From the NCBI RefSeq assembly GCF_014773365.1, contig NZ_JACWUN010000006.1, positions 1 to 64,000 of the forward strand: 64,000 nt of DNA. Direction: 5' to 3'. Within the stretch, counting starts at the first letter, position 1. The number at the start of each line of letters is the position of its first letter. This DNA is from Pelovirga terrestris (GTDB lineage Bacteria > Desulfobacterota > Desulfuromonadia > Desulfuromonadales > Geopsychrobacteraceae). Positions 43,191 to 60,628 of this stretch are shown piece by piece. The notes beneath the pieces are model-generated. The model ran no database searches and was not told the DNA's origin. It saw only the letters and a program-made list of their open reading frames with translations. The position numbers and the translations under genes were made by a program.

Positions 43191-46019
43191 ATGACTCTTG
43201 CATTGATCCCTTTGCTCCCCTTGTTAGGAGCGCTCATCCCCTCCCTGTTTCGCAGTCGCAATCTGAATGCTTTGAGTGCTGGAGCAATCGCCGGCATCTC
43301 GATGCTGCTGTTGCTGCTGCAAGCACCGGCGGTCTTTAATGGCGAGATGCCGCTGGCGAGTTGGAGTTGGATTCCCGCTATTGGACTGAATTTCGCTTTT
43401 CGGGTCAGCGGTTTTGGTTTCATGTTTGCTTTTTTGATCCTCGGCATCGGTTTGCTGATTGTTCTTTACGCCCGTTTTTATATTTCAGCTGATGACCCGA
43501 TGGGGCGTTTTTATTCTTACCTGTTGCTGTTTATGGGATCAATGCTGGGGATCGTTCTGTCGGAAAACATCATGTTGCTGATGATGTTCTGGGAATTGAC
43601 CAGTATCAGCTCGTTTCTGCTGATCGGCTTCTGGAGCTACCGTACCGATGCCCGTGAGGGGGCACGTCAGGCCCTGGTGATTACCGGCGGCGGCGGTTTG
43701 GCAATGATCGCCGGCTTTCTTCTGCTCGGTCATATCGTCGGTAGTTTTGAACTGACAACCATTTTGGCTGCAAAAGAGATTATTCATGCCCATCACCTTT
43801 ATCCAATCACCCTTATTCTGATCCTGCTCGGCGCCTTTACCAAGTCGGCACAGTTTCCCTTCCAGTTCTGGCTGCCTCACGCCATGGCGGCACCGACGCC
43901 GGTGAGTGCTTATCTTCATTCTGCAACCATGGTCAAGGCCGGAGTGTTTTTGCTGGCACTACTGTTTCCGGTACTATCAGGCAGTTCCCTGTGGTTTTAT
44001 ATTGTGACGCCCGTTGGTCTGATCACATTTATGTTTGCTGCTTACATGGCCATGTTCAAAGATGATCTTAAGGGGCTGCTGGCCTATTCCACGGTCAGCC
44101 ACCTCGGCCTGATTACCTTGCTGCTTGGGCTCGGCAGCCCGCTGGCGGCTTTTACCGCGGTCTTTCACATCCTCAATCACGCCACCTTTAAGGCCGGCTT
44201 GTTCATGCTTGCCGGGATTATCGATCACGAGACGGGTACCCGTGATATGAAACGGCTGTCGGGCTTATGGAAGTATATGCCGATTACCGGCACCCTGACC
44301 ATGATCGGTAGTGCATCCATGGCTGGAGTCCCCCTGTTTAACGGCTTTTTGAGTAAAGAAATGTTTCTGGCGGAAACCCTGGAGCCCAACCTGTTCGGTG
44401 CTTTCAGTTGGATCGTACCGCTCGGGGCTACTCTGGCGGCAATTTTTGCCGTGGCCTACTCGATCCGCATGGTGCATGACGTTTTTTTCAAGGAGCCCTT
44501 CACCAATCTGCCGAAAAAGCCCCATGAGCCACCCCACGGCATGCGTCTGCCGGCCGAAATTCTGATGACCCTCTGTGTTCTGGTCGGCCTGTTCCCCATG
44601 ACCCTGGCGGCGCCTATGGTCAATATGGCTGCCGGCAGCATCCTCGGCGCAGCGACCCCCGACTACCACATTGCCATCTGGCATGGTCTCAACATGGCGC
44701 TGGCGATGAGTGTCATTGCCCTGGCTGGTGGCGCCGTTTTTTATCTGCAGCGCCTGCGCCTGTTTGATTCCCACCGTTGGTGTATGCGCTATTGTGACGG
44801 AAAAGCGACTTTTGAGGCCCTTATCCGTGGCCTGGTACAGGGTGGCAGAACGTTGACCGGCCTGATGGAAAACGGCTCATTACAGCGTTACATTGCCCTG
44901 CTGGTAGGAGCCGTGTTCGTGCTGGGCGCGAGTCCGTTTTTTGGGTCAAGTGTGCCTTTTATCGGTCCTTTGGCCATGTCGTCAGTCGATCCGGTAACCC
45001 TGATCATGGGCTTGGTGTTGATCGTTTGTACTGTGGCAACGGTGGTGAATCATCGTAACCGGATTTTGTCGATTATCATGCTCGGTTCTGTCGGACTGAT
45101 CGTTTCACTGTCTTTTATCCGATTTTCGGCACCGGATCTCGCCCTGACCCAGATTTCCGTTGAGGTGGTCACTATTATTCTGCTGATGATGGCGCTGCAT
45201 CTGCTGCCGCGCACCACTCCGGTGGAGTCGAGCAGTGTTCGACGCGGACGTGATATCGGCTTGTCTGTGCTGGCGGGCGGTGGAGCTGCGGCTCTGATGT
45301 TGGCGGTACTGTCACGTCCCTACGATACCATTGCCGGATATTTTCTCGAGAACAGCAAGCCTGGTGGCGGTGGTACCAATGTGGTTAACGTCATTCTGGT
45401 TGACTTTCGGGGGTTTGATACCCTGGGTGAAATTACCGTGCTGGTGATTGCCGGCCTGGTGATTTACGCCATGCTGCATAATTTTGAGCTGACCGCACCC
45501 GGAATTGACGCGCTGGGACGCCCTTGGGTTCAGGATCGCTTTCCGATGATTTTGGCGCAGATTACCCGGCCATTGATGCCGTTGGCGCTATTGTTTGCCG
45601 CCTATATTTTCCTGCGTGGACACAATGAACCGGGCGGCGGTTTTATTGCCGGCCTGATCGTCGCGTCGGTACTGATCCTCCAGTATATTTCCAGCGGGAT
45701 TGTCTGGACCCGCCCACGGCTGACTGTCGATAATCACATCATTATGGCCTGGGGTTTGGTGATCGCGGTGTTGACCGGGGTTGGCAGCTGGGTGATCGGT
45801 TACCCGTTTTTGACCACCAGTTTTACTTACCTGACCTGGCCATTGGTTGGCAAATTTGAGGTGGCCAGCGCTATCGCTTTCGACCTTGGCGTGTTTCTGG
45901 CGGTGGTCGGTTCGGTGATGCTCATACTGGTGAAGCTGGGATCGATGAATTCGAAGGATGCCGAAATCGTGTCCGCCAGCGTGCAAAAAGCCAAAGAAAA
46001 AAAAGAAGGAGCACACTAA
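43191..46019 (+). CDS. mrpA: Na+/H+ antiporter Mrp subunit A fused to subunit B
   Basis: A 942-residue polytopic subunit. The first about 500 residues are complex-I NuoL/M-like proton channel sequence (GAFTKSAQFPFQFWLPHAMAAPTPVSAYLHSA, and the GVPLFNGFLSKEMF segment), followed by MrpA-specific helices with VEVVTIILL, and a C-terminal MnhB-type domain (LRGHNEPGGGFIAGL). Thus the B subunit is fused, as in group 2 or bicistronic-reduced Mrp systems. The ATG at 43191 has GAGAAGGA 7 bases upstream. It exchanges cytoplasmic Na+ for H+ together with the C-G subunits. Confidence 0.93.
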   Translation: MTLALIPLLPLLGALIPSLFRSRNLNALSAGAIAGISMLLLLLQAPAVFNGEMPLASWSWIPAIGLNFAFRVSGFGFMFAFLILGIGLLIVLYARFYISADDPMGRFYSYLLLFMGSMLGIVLSENIMLLMMFWELTSISSFLLIGFWSYRTDAREGARQALVITGGGGLAMIAGFLLLGHIVGSFELTTILAAKEIIHAHHLYPITLILILLGAFTKSAQFPFQFWLPHAMAAPTPVSAYLHSATMVKAGVFLLALLFPVLSGSSLWFYIVTPVGLITFMFAAYMAMFKDDLKGLLAYSTVSHLGLITLLLGLGSPLAAFTAVFHILNHATFKAGLFMLAGIIDHETGTRDMKRLSGLWKYMPITGTLTMIGSASMAGVPLFNGFLSKEMFLAETLEPNLFGAFSWIVPLGATLAAIFAVAYSIRMVHDVFFKEPFTNLPKKPHEPPHGMRLPAEILMTLCVLVGLFPMTLAAPMVNMAAGSILGAATPDYHIAIWHGLNMALAMSVIALAGGAVFYLQRLRLFDSHRWCMRYCDGKATFEALIRGLVQGGRTLTGLMENGSLQRYIALLVGAVFVLGASPFFGSSVPFIGPLAMSSVDPVTLIMGLVLIVCTVATVVNHRNRILSIIMLGSVGLIVSLSFIRFSAPDLALTQISVEVVTIILLMMALHLLPRTTPVESSSVRRGRDIGLSVLAGGGAAALMLAVLSRPYDTIAGYFLENSKPGGGGTNVVNVILVDFRGFDTLGEITVLVIAGLVIYAMLHNFELTAPGIDALGRPWVQDRFPMILAQITRPLMPLALLFAAYIFLRGHNEPGGGFIAGLIVASVLILQYISSGIVWTRPRLTVDNHIIMAWGLVIAVLTGVGSWVIGYPFLTTSFTYLTWPLVGKFEVASAIAFDLGVFLAVVGSVMLILVKLGSMNSKDAEIVSASVQKAKEKKEGAH

Positions 46020-46355
46020 ATGGAGCTGTTGTTTTCCATCTGTCTGGGCGTGATGATCGCCTGTGGTGTTTATCTGATGCTGCGAGGGCGAACCTTTCCG
46101 GTGATTCTCGGTTTGACCTTGCTTGGTTACGCGGTAAATATGTTTTTATTTGTCAGCGGGCGGCTGCACACCAATCTGCCGGCGGTTATTTCGCCTGAGC
46201 GCGCCCAATATGCAGACCCTTTGCCCCAGGCGTTGGTACTGACGGCCATTGTTATCGGTTTTGCCATGGTCGCATTTGTCGTGGTTTTGGCCTTGCGGGC
46301 CAGTGGTGAGCTTGGCTCCGATCATGTTGACGGTCGCAAGGAGAACGAATCATGA
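46020..46355 (+). CDS. mrpC: Na+/H+ antiporter Mrp subunit C
   Basis: A 111-residue NuoK-like subunit with three helices (CLGVMIACGVYLMLRG, ILGLTLLGYAVNMFLFVSG, QALVLTAIVIGFAMVAFVVVLAL). The highly conserved D-P-L-P-Q-A-L-V-L-T-A-I-V-I motif is present. Start and mrpA stop overlap as TAAATG. Confidence 0.94.
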   Translation: MELLFSICLGVMIACGVYLMLRGRTFPVILGLTLLGYAVNMFLFVSGRLHTNLPAVISPERAQYADPLPQALVLTAIVIGFAMVAFVVVLALRASGELGSDHVDGRKENES

Positions 46356-47920
46356 ACCATTTGATAGTTGCTCCCTTGCTGCTGCCATTGTTGATGGGAG
46401 CGATCATCGTTCTTGCAGTAAATCGCAGTATGGCCCTGCATCGTACCCTGGGGCTGATCAGTTCCCTGCTGGTAACTCTGATTACCGGTGCCTTATTGTA
46501 TCAGGCGGCTACCGGTCCGATTCAGATGTATGTCCTTGGTGACTGGAGTCCACCTTTCGGCATCATCATGGTACTCGATCGGTTAAGTGCGATGATGATT
46601 TTTATTACCTCCCTGCTGGCTTTTCTTTGTCTGCTGTATGCGGTGAAAGGCACCGATGAGCAGGGGAAAAACTTTCACGCCCTGTTTCAGTTTCAGCTGC
46701 TTGGCATCAACGGTGCCTTTCTGACCGGTGATATTTTTAATCTCTTCGTCTTTTTCGAGATCATGCTGCTGGCATCATACGGGCTGGTGCTGCACGGCGG
46801 CGGTGCCCGACGCACCAAGGCCGGCATGCACTACGTTATGCTTAATCTGGTGGGTTCCAGTGTGTTTCTGATCGGGGTGGGTATCCTTTATGGCCTGCTC
46901 GGATCCTTAAATATGGCAGATATGGCGGTACGTCTGGCTCACGCCCCGTCCGATAATGCGGCGCTGCTGCAGGCTGGCGGGTTGATCCTGTTCGGGGTTT
47001 TTGCCCTCAAGGCGGCACTGCTTCCACTCTATTTCTGGTTGCCCAACGCCTACGGCTTTACCAGCGCCCCGGTGGCCGCCCTGTTTGCGGTCATGACCAA
47101 GGTTGGGGTTTACGTCATCCTGCGCGTTTACACATTGATATTTGGAGATCACGCCGGAGTTGCTGCCAATGTCCTTGAGCCGTGGCTGCTACCGGTCGCG
47201 CTGGTAACCCTGGTCGCCGGCTCTATCGGCGTTGTCGCCAGTCGTGACCTGCGCCAGACAATTGCTTATATGGTGGTCGCTTCGGTCGGCACCCTGCTGG
47301 CCGTGATCGGTACCTTCGGTGTCGATGCTATCGCAGCAGCCATTGTCTATCTGCCTCATACCACCTTTATGACCGCCGCCATGTTTCTGATCGCGGATAT
47401 GATCCGCCAGCAACGTCTTGATGCCGGTGCGGCCTTGACTCCTGATCGGCCGGTTGGGCAGGAACGGTTACTGGGACTGTTGTTTTTAGGCGCCGCAGTG
47501 GCGATTGGCGGCTTGCCGCCGTTAAGCGGATTTACTGCCAAGGTGACGATGCTGATGGGGGTACAGTCCCATGCTGCCGCACCCTGGATCTGGTCGCTGG
47601 TACTGATTGGTGGACTGTTGGGGCTGATCGCCCTCGGGCGTGCCGGTAGTGTGATCTTCTGGAAAACCATACCTCTTGATGACAGTGGTGTCGACGCCTT
47701 TTCCAAGGAACCTCATGCCAATATCCCGCGTTACAGTGCCGGCTATGTCTTCCCGGTATTGATTCTTCTGGCGATCAGCCCACTTTTGGTATTGTTCGGT
47801 GGTCCCTTAAGTGATTTCGGCTACGCTGTCGCAGCCCAGATCAGCCAGCCGGTTTATTACATAGAGGCGGTACTCGGTAGTGATGCCGTAGCTGCATTGA
47901 TGTCAGCAGGAGGTCGCTAA
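46352..47920 (+). CDS. mrpD: Na+/H+ antiporter Mrp subunit D
   Basis: A 522-residue antiporter-like subunit homologous to NuoN/M. The key helices are seen: the conserved glutamate in FVFFEIMLLASYGLV and the lysine in ALKAALLPLYFWLPNAYGF, with the later helix GGLPPLSGFTAKV. It overlaps mrpC by 4 bases and mrpE by 1. Confidence 0.94.
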   Translation: MNHLIVAPLLLPLLMGAIIVLAVNRSMALHRTLGLISSLLVTLITGALLYQAATGPIQMYVLGDWSPPFGIIMVLDRLSAMMIFITSLLAFLCLLYAVKGTDEQGKNFHALFQFQLLGINGAFLTGDIFNLFVFFEIMLLASYGLVLHGGGARRTKAGMHYVMLNLVGSSVFLIGVGILYGLLGSLNMADMAVRLAHAPSDNAALLQAGGLILFGVFALKAALLPLYFWLPNAYGFTSAPVAALFAVMTKVGVYVILRVYTLIFGDHAGVAANVLEPWLLPVALVTLVAGSIGVVASRDLRQTIAYMVVASVGTLLAVIGTFGVDAIAAAIVYLPHTTFMTAAMFLIADMIRQQRLDAGAALTPDRPVGQERLLGLLFLGAAVAIGGLPPLSGFTAKVTMLMGVQSHAAAPWIWSLVLIGGLLGLIALGRAGSVIFWKTIPLDDSGVDAFSKEPHANIPRYSAGYVFPVLILLAISPLLVLFGGPLSDFGYAVAAQISQPVYYIEAVLGSDAVAALMSAGGR

Positions 47921-48420
47921 TGCAAGGTAACCGTTGGATCCCTCATCCGTTAATGACCGTTGCGCTGATTGTTTTGTGGCTGTTACTCAATAACACCTAT
48001 TCCTTTGGCCATATTCTGCTTGGTACCCTGCTGGGAATCATGATCCCCTGGTTTACTAATCGCTTCTGGCCGGAGCGCCCGCGGATTTGCAAGCGCCGCT
48101 TGTTTCTAAGGTTCTTTTTCATGACTTTTGTTTATGATGTCGTCATGTCCAACATCAATGTGGTGCGCCTGATTCTTAAGCCCGATATTTCAACTCTGCA
48201 ACCCAAGTTTATTGAGGTACCCCTTGATATTGATGATCCGATGGTGATTTCTATCCTCGCCAACGTTATTTCCATGACTCCGGGAACCGTATCGAGTGAA
48301 ATCAGTGCTGACCATAAGACCTTGATCGTTCACGGCCTTAATGTGCCCGATGAGCAAGCGGCGATTGCTCAGATAAAGTCCCGCTATGAAGCCACTCTCA
48401 AGGAGATTTTCACATGCTGA
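47920..48420 (+). CDS. mrpE: Na+/H+ antiporter Mrp subunit E
   Basis: A 166-residue subunit with two N-terminal helices and a cytoplasmic domain. DVVMSNINVVRLIL followed by the long soluble part with NVISMTPGTVSSEIS is the MrpE signature. It begins inside the mrpD stop (TAATG). Confidence 0.93.
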   Translation: MQGNRWIPHPLMTVALIVLWLLLNNTYSFGHILLGTLLGIMIPWFTNRFWPERPRICKRRLFLRFFFMTFVYDVVMSNINVVRLILKPDISTLQPKFIEVPLDIDDPMVISILANVISMTPGTVSSEISADHKTLIVHGLNVPDEQAAIAQIKSRYEATLKEIFTC

Positions 48421-48683
48421 ATGTCGCCCTGGTGATCGCATTTGTGTTTATGACTCTGGCCCAGTTATTGAACCTCTATCGTTTGTTCAAGGGGCCAAGC
48501 CTGCCGGATCGGATCCTGGCATTGGATACCATGTATATCAACGCGTTAGCCCTGTTTGTATTGTTGGGTATCTATTTTGATACGGCAACCTACTTCGAGG
48601 CAGCGTTGATTATTGCCGTGATGGGTTTTATCAGTACGGTGGCGACCAGCAAGTACCTGATGCGTGGCGATATCGTTGAATAA
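48414..48683 (+). CDS. mrpF: Na+/H+ antiporter Mrp subunit F
   Basis: An 89-residue three-helix subunit; RLFKGPSLPDRILALDTMYINALAL is the conserved MrpF loop and helix, with the buried Asp. It overlaps mrpE by 7 bases. MrpF mutants in other bacteria affect Na+ and cholate resistance. Confidence 0.93.
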   Translation: MLNVALVIAFVFMTLAQLLNLYRLFKGPSLPDRILALDTMYINALALFVLLGIYFDTATYFEAALIIAVMGFISTVATSKYLMRGDIVE

Positions 48684-48698
48684 ATCGAGGAGTTTGAC

Positions 48699-49016
48699 AT
48701 GATCGTTGTGGAGATTCTGGTCTCTTTCTTTTTGATAATCGGAGCCTTTTTTGCACTGGCCGGCTCCATCGGTCTGTTTCGCCTGCAGGACTTTTTCACT
48801 CGTCTGCATGGACCGACCAAGGCAACTACTCTGGGGGTTGGCAGCATGGCCATTGCCTCGGCCATTTATTTCAGCTTTCTCAAAGAAGGCTTAAGCCTGC
48901 ACGAAGTGCTGATCACTCTGTTTCTGTTTATCACCGCTCCGGTCAGTGCCCATTTTCTTGCCAAAGCAGCGCGTCATCAACGTCTGCACGAGGATAAAGA
49001 TCATCCCGAAACCTGA
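48699..49016 (+). CDS. mrpG: Na+/H+ antiporter Mrp subunit G
   Basis: A 105-residue three-helix subunit with the diagnostic GSIGLFRLQDFFTRLHGPTKATTLGV and ITAPVSAHFLAKAA. It completes the antiporter as A(B)-C-D-E-F-G. It follows mrpF by 15 bases with AGGAG before the start. A hairpin lies 33 bases downstream. Confidence 0.94.
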   Translation: MIVVEILVSFFLIIGAFFALAGSIGLFRLQDFFTRLHGPTKATTLGVGSMAIASAIYFSFLKEGLSLHEVLITLFLFITAPVSAHFLAKAARHQRLHEDKDHPET

Positions 49017-58852: not shown

Positions 58853-59917
58853 TCAGGAAGATCGCGGCAACAATTCAAGGGCGCGTGAGCGCCACGAAAG
58901 CACGCCGATCTGGATGTGCATGCGCGCTGCAAGCTGGGGAAAATCACTACCGATGACGTTGGCAGCAAAATTAGCAAGGAAGCGCGATTTCAGTTCAGCG
59001 CGCGCGCGATCCATTCCGATTCCTTCGTAGGGAACCGACGTAAATAGCAAAAAGCCATCGTCGGGAATCCGTCCGGCAGTCATATTCCCCTCAATAATCC
59101 CTGCCGCTTTACGAATCGGATCTGCCAGGTCCGGGCTGTAGGGCCCAATAATCAGTGCCAGATTCGGCGTATGCAGAAAGTCGAAGCCGCGCCCCAGGCA
59201 GATCATCCATTCCCGATGTTCTACATCCAGCAACCGACAGGTGTTGCGTACCTCGGCAATGCGCTTAATATTCCCCTGCAGCAAGGGGAGCAGGTCGTGC
59301 TGCATCTGTTCCGGCATGTCGGGAAACATGCTTGCGATCTTGTGATCCAGCGCTGGTATGTCAGCCGGTGAAAGGGTTGACAGGTCGAGAAGTTCATCCT
59401 CAGCCCCATGCAGGATCAGGGCATCATCATCTGTTTCATAGCCACAGAGAAGAGGATAGATGGTGCCGTGGCGGTTGCCAAAGATATATTCCGCCTGTTG
59501 CTTGATTTCCCGGCAATGGGCGAGGGCAGCTGCAGTATCACAGTCAAAACCTCCACATCCACGGCGGTCATCTCCACGGGAAAAGTGATAGGTGATGAAA
59601 AACAGAACCTGGTGGCCGGCCGCCAGCATGCGGTGAACTTCCGCCGCCAGGACTTCTCCCAGATGCGGCCAGCCGAGGTTAAACATACCGCCAAGGTTAC
59701 GGAAGGGCTGGATGATGCCGGGCGGGGTACCGGTAGCAACCGGGATATTGATGCGCCCGTCCATACATTTAAGGACCATAATCGCAGTGGGGTATTTGGC
59801 GAGATAAAATTCCCGGGCCAGGCTGGCATCAGGACTGCGAAACTCAGCGGTGTGACGTTGAGCGAGATCCTGTAGCCAGGCGATGCGTTCGGCAATCGGT
59901 TGTTGATGAATCAGCAT
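58853..59917 (-). CDS. Carbonic-anhydrase-like protein with CsoSCA-type zinc-site pattern
   Basis: A 354-residue soluble protein. It has the beta-class-like Cys-x-Asp-x-Arg triad C51-D53-R55 (in LKCMDGRIN) and a second ligand group H111 and C121 in YHFSRGDDRRGCGGF. In carboxysomal carbonic anhydrase (CsoSCA) the zinc ligands are likewise one Cys in a C-x-D-x-R motif and a His and Cys about 11 apart, so a zinc enzyme hydrating CO2 is plausible, but no carboxysome genes are nearby. An ordinary beta carbonic anhydrase gene lies just upstream on the same strand. Catalytic activity is not shown by the sequence. Confidence 0.7.
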   Translation of the reverse strand: MLIHQQPIAERIAWLQDLAQRHTAEFRSPDASLAREFYLAKYPTAIMVLKCMDGRINIPVATGTPPGIIQPFRNLGGMFNLGWPHLGEVLAAEVHRMLAAGHQVLFFITYHFSRGDDRRGCGGFDCDTAAALAHCREIKQQAEYIFGNRHGTIYPLLCGYETDDDALILHGAEDELLDLSTLSPADIPALDHKIASMFPDMPEQMQHDLLPLLQGNIKRIAEVRNTCRLLDVEHREWMICLGRGFDFLHTPNLALIIGPYSPDLADPIRKAAGIIEGNMTAGRIPDDGFLLFTSVPYEGIGMDRARAELKSRFLANFAANVIGSDFPQLAARMHIQIGVLSWRSRALELLPRSS

Positions 59918-59944
59918 GCCTAGCTCTCACCTGAAAGAGTCATG

Positions 59945-60628
59945 TTAGTCGACTTTTTGGCCTTCAGTCGGGGGGCTGTAACGCTCAACCAGGATTTCAA
60001 ACTCAGCAGTTAACTGATTGTAGCAGCGCAGCTGGCCGGTGCCGATATTGTAGTACCAGCCATGCAGGCTCAGTTGGCCACGGTTGACCCGTTCACGCAC
60101 CCAGGGAAAAGTCATCAGGTTTTTTAACGAAACGAGGATCGATTCCTTTTCACAGGCGCGTAGCTGTTTTTCCTCCGGCGCGTCGACAAGGTCCTGCAGC
60201 ACCTTGTCGCGAGCAGAAGCGGCAATGCTGACCCATTTGCTGATGAATTCACCGGCAATCTCCCCTTTGGCGCTCTTCATCAAGGCGTTGATGCCACCGC
60301 ATTGGGAGTGCCCCAGGATGATGATGTCAGAGACATTGAGATAGCAGACGGCATATTCTATCGTTGAACTGACACCATGGTAGTCATCACTTTTGGCATC
60401 GCTTTTAACGTAAGGGGGAACCAGATTGGCAATATTGCGCAGAATAAACAGATCACCGGGGGCACAGGCAGTCAGCAGCGCCGGATCGACCCGGGAATCG
60501 CAACAGCCGATCAGCAGGGCCTGCGGCCTTTGACCGGCAGCCAGAGAGGTTGCGAGTTCAGCGTTTTCGCCAAAGTGCTGTTTTTGAAAAACGCCAATCC
60601 CATCGAGAAATTTACTCACGTCCGCCAT
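59945..60628 (-). CDS. Beta-class carbonic anhydrase
   Basis: A 227-residue enzyme. Zinc ligands and catalytic dyad: C42, D44 and R46 in GCCDSRVDP, H107 and C110 in GHSQCGG. It is of the bacterial Can type and converts CO2 and bicarbonate. The ATG is followed by a regular N-terminal helix (SKFLDGIGVFQKQHFG). It stands 27 bases upstream of the second carbonic-anhydrase-like gene, in what looks like one operon. Upstream 60629-60893 is a divergent spacer with no further element that I could define. Confidence 0.94.
   Translation of the reverse strand: MADVSKFLDGIGVFQKQHFGENAELATSLAAGQRPQALLIGCCDSRVDPALLTACAPGDLFILRNIANLVPPYVKSDAKSDDYHGVSSTIEYAVCYLNVSDIIILGHSQCGGINALMKSAKGEIAGEFISKWVSIAASARDKVLQDLVDAPEEKQLRACEKESILVSLKNLMTFPWVRERVNRGQLSLHGWYYNIGTGQLRCYNQLTAEFEILVERYSPPTEGQKVD

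Follow-up and report, generated by a model that had tools for sequence, protein, structure and literature searches.

A non-carboxysomal CsoSCA homologue of the CsoSCA2 family beside a beta-carbonic anhydrase gene in Pelovirga terrestris

The gene pair and its zinc-site residues

The stretch of DNA analysed here (the window) comprises 64,000 nucleotides of Pelovirga terrestris contig NZ_JACWUN010000006.1 and contains a pair of adjacent genes on the reverse strand (Table 1). The original prediction had placed a C51-x-D53-x-R55 motif together with H111 and C121 in the 354-residue product of the second gene of the pair, and a normal beta-carbonic anhydrase 27 bases upstream on the same strand; the residues lie at these positions, and the upstream neighbour is indeed a beta-carbonic anhydrase of the ordinary type, matching Pro_CA at E 6.1e-49. 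Judged by its sequence and predicted fold, the 354-residue protein is a non-carboxysomal homologue of the carboxysomal carbonic anhydrase CsoSCA, and such free-standing homologues have been named CsoSCA2 in a study that describes them as yet to be studied (PMC9164163). An AGGTGA-like sequence, read directly, precedes the ATG of the second gene and the pair is probably co-transcribed as one operon; a promoter and terminator scan of the pair gave about the number expected from shuffled sequence. Neither the RuBisCO large subunit (PF00016) nor the shell family (PF00936) was matched in the 3.1-Mb genome (listed completeness 99.99%), in searches that were positive in control genomes; the original prediction had noted that no shell or RuBisCO genes are near the pair. 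About 10 kb from the pair, at 45003-49016 of the window (+ strand), lies a run of genes resembling a Mrp-type multisubunit cation/proton antiporter, which was recognised by eye and by a BLAST match at 27%.

Table 1. Features of the gene pair, in window coordinates.
Feature	Position	Strand	Description
CsoSCA2-type protein gene (non-carboxysomal CsoSCA homologue)	58853..59917	-	354-aa ORF; predicted zinc-site residues C51, H111, C121; D53-R55 dyad
Intergenic gap, 27 bases	59918..59944	-	Shine-Dalgarno-like AGGTGA, read directly
Canonical beta-carbonic anhydrase gene	59945..60628	-	227-aa ORF; CCDSR, GHSQCGG; only Pro_CA match in the whole genome

The five residues C51, D53, R55, H111 and C121 are invariant in all 100 non-carboxysomal rows that we aligned (92 distinct sequences, eight rows being the same gene from two collections) and in all five carboxysomal-type CsoSCA rows. 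The loose pattern C.D.R-x(40,80)-H-x(6,12)-C appeared in 97 of 20000 shuffles of the 354-residue protein and was absent from the other 751 genes called in the 81 loci described below; the five-residue site is more than chance. The His and the second Cys are separated by 9 residues in the 100 non-carboxysomal rows (99 by pattern, the hundredth by reading), by 10 in all five rows of carboxysomal type and by 2 in the adjacent beta-carbonic anhydrase. In the second half, residues 287-312, which appear to match the H111-C121 region of the first half, contain neither His nor Cys; sequence and secondary structure together suggest that this half is without a zinc site and is the counterpart of the defunct half of CsoSCA. 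One cysteine of the second half, Cys240 (codon 59198-59200, - strand), stands at a place resembling that of the putative zinc ligand C51; it is kept in 100 of 100 non-carboxysomal rows and missing from all five carboxysomal-type rows, and may be left over from a second zinc site since lost, or may have a structural or redox role.

Kinship with CsoSCA in sequence and predicted fold

The protein scores low against curated profiles. Pfam CsoSCA_cat reached 14.6 bits against a cut-off of 21.5, and TIGR02701 reached 25.9 bits (E 4e-6) against an equivalog cut-off of 241.05; CsoSCA_N and CsoSCA_C did not match the protein, nor did Pro_CA at E<=1. Searched as a single sequence, it had no phmmer match among PDB sequences and none in the plasmid collection, and PHROGs returned a chance-level match alone (E 0.098). 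A profile of the protein with 16 homologues that are 53-91% identical (alignment A1, 17 sequences, no carboxysomal sequence among them) gave five matches among PDB sequences at E<=10, all of them CsoSCA, the best at 3.2e-6. The larger alignment A4 holds 74 sequences, including five carboxysomal-type rows that are all of carboxysomal length (502-540 aa), of which only L140 was observed next to a CsoS2 gene; profile-profile comparison (hhalign) against these five gave 97.7% at E 1.4e-12. CsoSCA_cat matched 60 of the 74 rows of A4, and CsoSCA_N and CsoSCA_C matched five rows each, a number equal to that of the carboxysomal-type rows. At the E-value matched to the Pfam cut-off, 9 of the 17 close homologues pass and the window's protein fails, showing that present curated models miss such members. 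When the Pfam model (PF20686) was searched in eight carrier genomes, four were positive with one match each, in every case the CsoSCA2-type gene, and these included Aromatoleum and Accumulibacter regalis; the search missed A. phosphatis, whose protein exceeds the cut-off when scanned directly, so that absence in this search means little. The corresponding TIGR02701 genome search had no match and is uninformative, because it was also silent in the control genomes and failed to detect even the window's own gene. A 42-row tree separated the five carboxysomal-type forms from the remaining 37 with 100/100 support; its bootstrap was not settled, and a long branch lies between the two groups. The window's protein grouped in it with its Desulfuromonadales relatives.

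Two structural models were built. The first, from A1, had a pLDDT of 74.7 and a pTM of 0.74 and was weak around parts of the zinc site; the second, from A4, had a pLDDT of 90.3 and a pTM of 0.87, and its alignment includes five carboxysomal-type sequences where that of the first includes none. The five top Foldseek matches were CsoSCA with both models, in the same ranking and with lower confidence for the first. For the second model, which spans both CsoSCA halves (residues 1-354), the five CsoSCA chains matched at E 4.5e-16 to 2.9e-15 and the fused tandem beta-carbonic anhydrase of Porphyridium at 1.1e-5. VIA-align superposed it on CsoSCA with Z of 29.7, 28.9 and 27.7 over 332-341 residues at 3.2-3.3 A, compared with a Z of 18.0 for the Porphyridium enzyme and at most 10.3 for the other rows, single beta-carbonic anhydrases among them. 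The structure prediction against CsoSCA and beta-carbonic anhydrases that had been proposed as a check was thus favourable, as both models match CsoSCA clearly better than other beta-carbonic anhydrases; with the site residues invariant, the PDB profile matching CsoSCA only and the fold aligning at Z 27.7-29.7, the description as a CsoSCA-like zinc-site protein held.

The fold comparison also bears on the idea that a carbonic-anhydrase fold is used here for another small substrate, for example COS or CS2, like the known hydrolases with a beta-carbonic anhydrase fold. COS hydrolase (3vqj, 3vrk) and CS2 hydrolase (3ten) do appear in the fold comparison, at Z 8.8-10.1; however, CsoSCA matches far better and every CsoSCA site residue is retained, and we consider such a substrate highly improbable. 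Against a CsoSCA-type carbonic anhydrase, which we favour, stand the weak Pfam score, the empty single-sequence PDB search and the inclusion of carboxysomal-type sequences in the alignment of the better model.

With regard to regulation, D246 of the window's protein aligns with D409 of the Halothiobacillus enzyme and K469 of the Cyanobium enzyme in the PDB alignment, the number 409 resting on a chain offset of 28 and on the Halothiobacillus zinc ligand, which we take to be His242. Column 246 holds D in 99 of the 100 non-carboxysomal rows and E in the remaining one, and E in all five rows of carboxysomal type. In Cyanobium, CsoSCA depends on RuBP by way of K469, whereas the Halothiobacillus enzyme, with D409 at this place, is constitutive (PMC11086599). 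Because the protein carries D246, as in the constitutive enzyme and unlike K469 of Cyanobium, RuBP should be unneeded, and we predict that the protein is RuBP-independent.

Distribution and gene neighbourhoods

A search of genome contigs found relatives encoded in 331 of 361 pattern-matching stretches, and 81 loci were studied, namely the best 80 of the 331 and the window. These best 80 include Desulfuromonadales, Rhodocyclaceae, Accumulibacter, Sulfuricella, Magnetococcales, Desulfobulbaceae and one Sumerlaeota. Of 60 relatives, counting the window's own genome, 15 gave a match, 14 of them a full-length copy and one a 51-residue fragment; phylum-wide, 6 of 297 genomes match, and for the class to which an Accumulibacter genome belongs the figure is 9 of 274, five of these being weak matches to proteins of carboxysomal length. 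The proposal of a free-standing, under-described family was therefore right in that homologues are numerous outside carboxysome loci, but the family has already been named in print. Two imperfect copies were seen: one CsoSCA2 gene (L019/L020, G118:C4:9019-10049) is split across two overlapping reading frames by a frameshift in the genome or the assembly, and the fragment (L015, G034:C126:2024-2176) is 49% identical to the C-terminal end of CsoSCA2 and is perhaps a relict.

The patchy occurrence among the 60 relatives and the split copy in G118 could be read as signs that the gene is a relict of a carboxysome locus since lost, now decaying or silent. This reading is difficult to reconcile with the 14 full-length copies among these relatives, which are free of inner stops, with site residues invariant in 92 distinct sequences, or with carboxysomal-type forms that stand apart from all other rows at 100/100 in the tree, and we give it hardly any credence.

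Among the 14 full-length carriers, 13 have a beta-carbonic anhydrase and 13 have no RuBisCO. The idea that CsoSCA2 replaces the beta-carbonic anhydrase was rejected, as 13 of the 14 carriers have both enzymes; the question of why such a cell would need a second cytosolic carbonic anhydrase also counts against the explanation that we favour. Six of the seven genomes without Pro_CA are likewise without full-length CsoSCA2. The only full-length carrier lacking a beta-carbonic anhydrase, G043 (L014), is listed as 100% complete; it gave no Pro_CA match, its CsoSCA2 is about 54% identical, and it is a candidate genome in which CsoSCA2 may be a main carbonic anhydrase.

The neighbourhood survey of homologues that had been recommended was run over the 81 loci (best 80 of 331 and the window) and found no universal partner. 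Genes were called by a codon-usage gene caller, whose calls are rough (the beta-carbonic anhydrase of L024 was lost, although present in its twin L004), and the Pfam tallies cover 71 of 77 upstream and 75 of 79 downstream genes, those of L030, L060, L076, L082, L100 and the window being dropped upstream and those of L038, L088, L096 and the window downstream as short, doubtful, end-cut or already known. There was no conserved operon partner across these loci; CysN lies upstream in 14 of 81, a SpoU-type methylase downstream in 16 of 75 and NAD synthase in 4 of 75, and these neighbours are mostly lineage-bound. The neighbouring beta-carbonic anhydrase, to which the original prediction had drawn attention, is present at the window but is not a family trait: of the four genomes of the window's genus, three have the pairing (G000, G001, G003), which occurs nowhere else among the 14 full-length carriers and is almost confined to the genus. 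An independent, divergently oriented pairing occurs in a betaproteobacterial MAG (L049), with a beta-carbonic anhydrase 48.8% identical.

Genes for inorganic carbon or ion translocation were found within the stretch read in 9 of the 81 loci: DabA with antiporter-like genes (L069, L081, L094, L099), SulP (L072, L076) and Ehr-type operons (L092, L100, L049), with L076 and L100 counted here though dropped from the upstream tally. One representative of each kind of neighbour was checked by Pfam and the others by BLAST. In L092 and L100, the CsoSCA2 gene is embedded in an Ehr-type operon with antiporter-like subunits and a hydrogenase-like large subunit, lying in L092 between two HyfB-like genes at 21 and 102 bases; in L049, it lies between the Ehr-type operon and the beta-carbonic anhydrase gene. 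The large subunits of these three operons have no CxxC and therefore look like hydrogenase-related complexes rather than hydrogenases, such complexes being described as without Ni-Fe ligands (PMC6349859). Ehr-type operons that embed or flank a CsoSCA2 gene, with antiporter-like subunits and a hydrogenase-like large subunit without CxxC, are seen in the stretches L157 (G635:C7:14000-30000), L158 and L159, with a SulP permease-like gene, recognised by eye, at the far end of L158. Outside the nine loci, L075 and L084 have antiporter-like genes akin to those beside DabA, and no DabA in the stretch read. One copy of DabA is present in 23 of the 47 carrier genomes searched, and by our own arithmetic four cases of DabA near the carbonic anhydrase gene compare with about 0.1 expected if it were randomly placed; three of these four loci form one clade in the 42-row tree.

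The excess of DabA, the position of the gene in L092 and the nine loci as a whole would suit a specialised carbonic anhydrase in the service of energised uptake of inorganic carbon or of ion transport; CsoSCA2 would then supply or drain CO2 and bicarbonate at DabA-antiporter, SulP or Ehr-type membrane complexes and not serve general metabolism. Yet 72 of the 81 loci, the window among them, have no such gene in the stretch read, three of the four DabA cases trace to a single clade, and L023 and L024, from relatives of the window's genus, are without DabA, and such a dedicated role is unlikely. Cyanobacterial NDH-1 complexes take up CO2, and it is at most a tentative suggestion, drawn from a minority of loci and not from the window itself, that CsoSCA2 provides the soluble, catalytic component of another energised CO2/bicarbonate module beside DabA-DabB and NDH-1; if so, the window's copy would be a member acting apart from such a complex. 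Among open-licence papers, we found none containing both 'energy-converting hydrogenase related' and 'carbonic anhydrase'.

Proposed function and comparison with known systems

On the evidence of sequence and model, the window's protein is most probably a free-standing carbonic anhydrase of the CsoSCA type (divergent beta), constitutive, RuBP-independent and cytosolic. It would be a fused pseudo-dimer with an active first half and a dead copy as its second half; zinc is predicted to be held by C51, H111, C121 and a water, and the D53-R55 dyad would keep the Asp off the metal. Because there is no CsoSCA N-terminal domain and no RuBisCO or shell gene was found, the protein should work free in the cytosol, where it would interconvert CO2 and bicarbonate alongside the beta-carbonic anhydrase encoded in what is probably the same operon. 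Two features, D246 and the lack of the N-terminal domain, together predict no RuBP dependence and no RuBisCO binding. We infer co-transcription, location and physiological role and, from the site and the fold, zinc binding, catalysis and a role with CO2 and bicarbonate.

Canonical beta-carbonic anhydrases share with the window's protein the C-x-D-x-R motif, the fold of the half and an RN-[IL] motif after C-x-D-x-R (FRNLGG here, LRNIAN in the neighbouring enzyme). They differ in matching Pro_CA and in a His-Cys gap of 2, whereas the window's protein has no Pro_CA match, a gap of 9 and a fused duplicate of which one half appears dead. Carboxysomal CsoSCA (PDB 2FGY, 9G4T, 8THM) is nearer, with the fold of the catalytic and C-terminal halves, the five site residues and a long His-Cys spacing in common. 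It has, however, a CsoSCA_N domain and is encoded in a cso locus together with RuBisCO and shell genes, none of which was found for the window's protein or genome; its His-Cys gap is 10, and identity in the structural alignment is about 19%. The window's protein sits outside a cso locus and outside the carboxysomal clade, across the 100/100 branch.

The protein is a new member of the published CsoSCA2 family, an identification that we infer from host, anatomy and Pfam match rather than from the published sequences. As described in PMC9164163, the compact CsoSCA2 variant consists of a 40-residue N-terminal part with an active and a defunct domain, and Accumulibacter phosphatis is among the hosts; the phylum list there does not name Desulfobacterota or Desulfuromonadales, and its text has neither 'desulf' nor 'geobacter', with 'Delta' occurring as a figure label. 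The documented range of non-carboxysomal CsoSCA now extends to Desulfuromonadales. PMC11086599 describes a non-cso cluster that lacks the N-terminal hook and whose neighbours include hydrogenases and permeases, and calls these isoforms uncharacterized, and in PMC12646314 CsoSCA2 serves as an outgroup; we found no activity data for any CsoSCA2 member in open-licence papers. Carboxysomal CsoSCA may have arisen from CsoSCA2-like proteins (PMC9164163), so that a compact form found where the genome gives no RuBisCO match is a fair subject for asking what role the fold had before carboxysomes. Compared with CsoSCA2 as published, the window's member lies below the Pfam cut-off and is paired with a beta-carbonic anhydrase. 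Like CsoSCA2 and the non-cso cluster, it is free-standing and compact with a short N-terminal part (about 40 residues in CsoSCA2, not 144; here 50 residues before C51, with no CsoSCA_N), has one apparently intact zinc site with an Asp-Arg dyad and a seemingly defunct second half, and finds its best structural match in CsoSCA.
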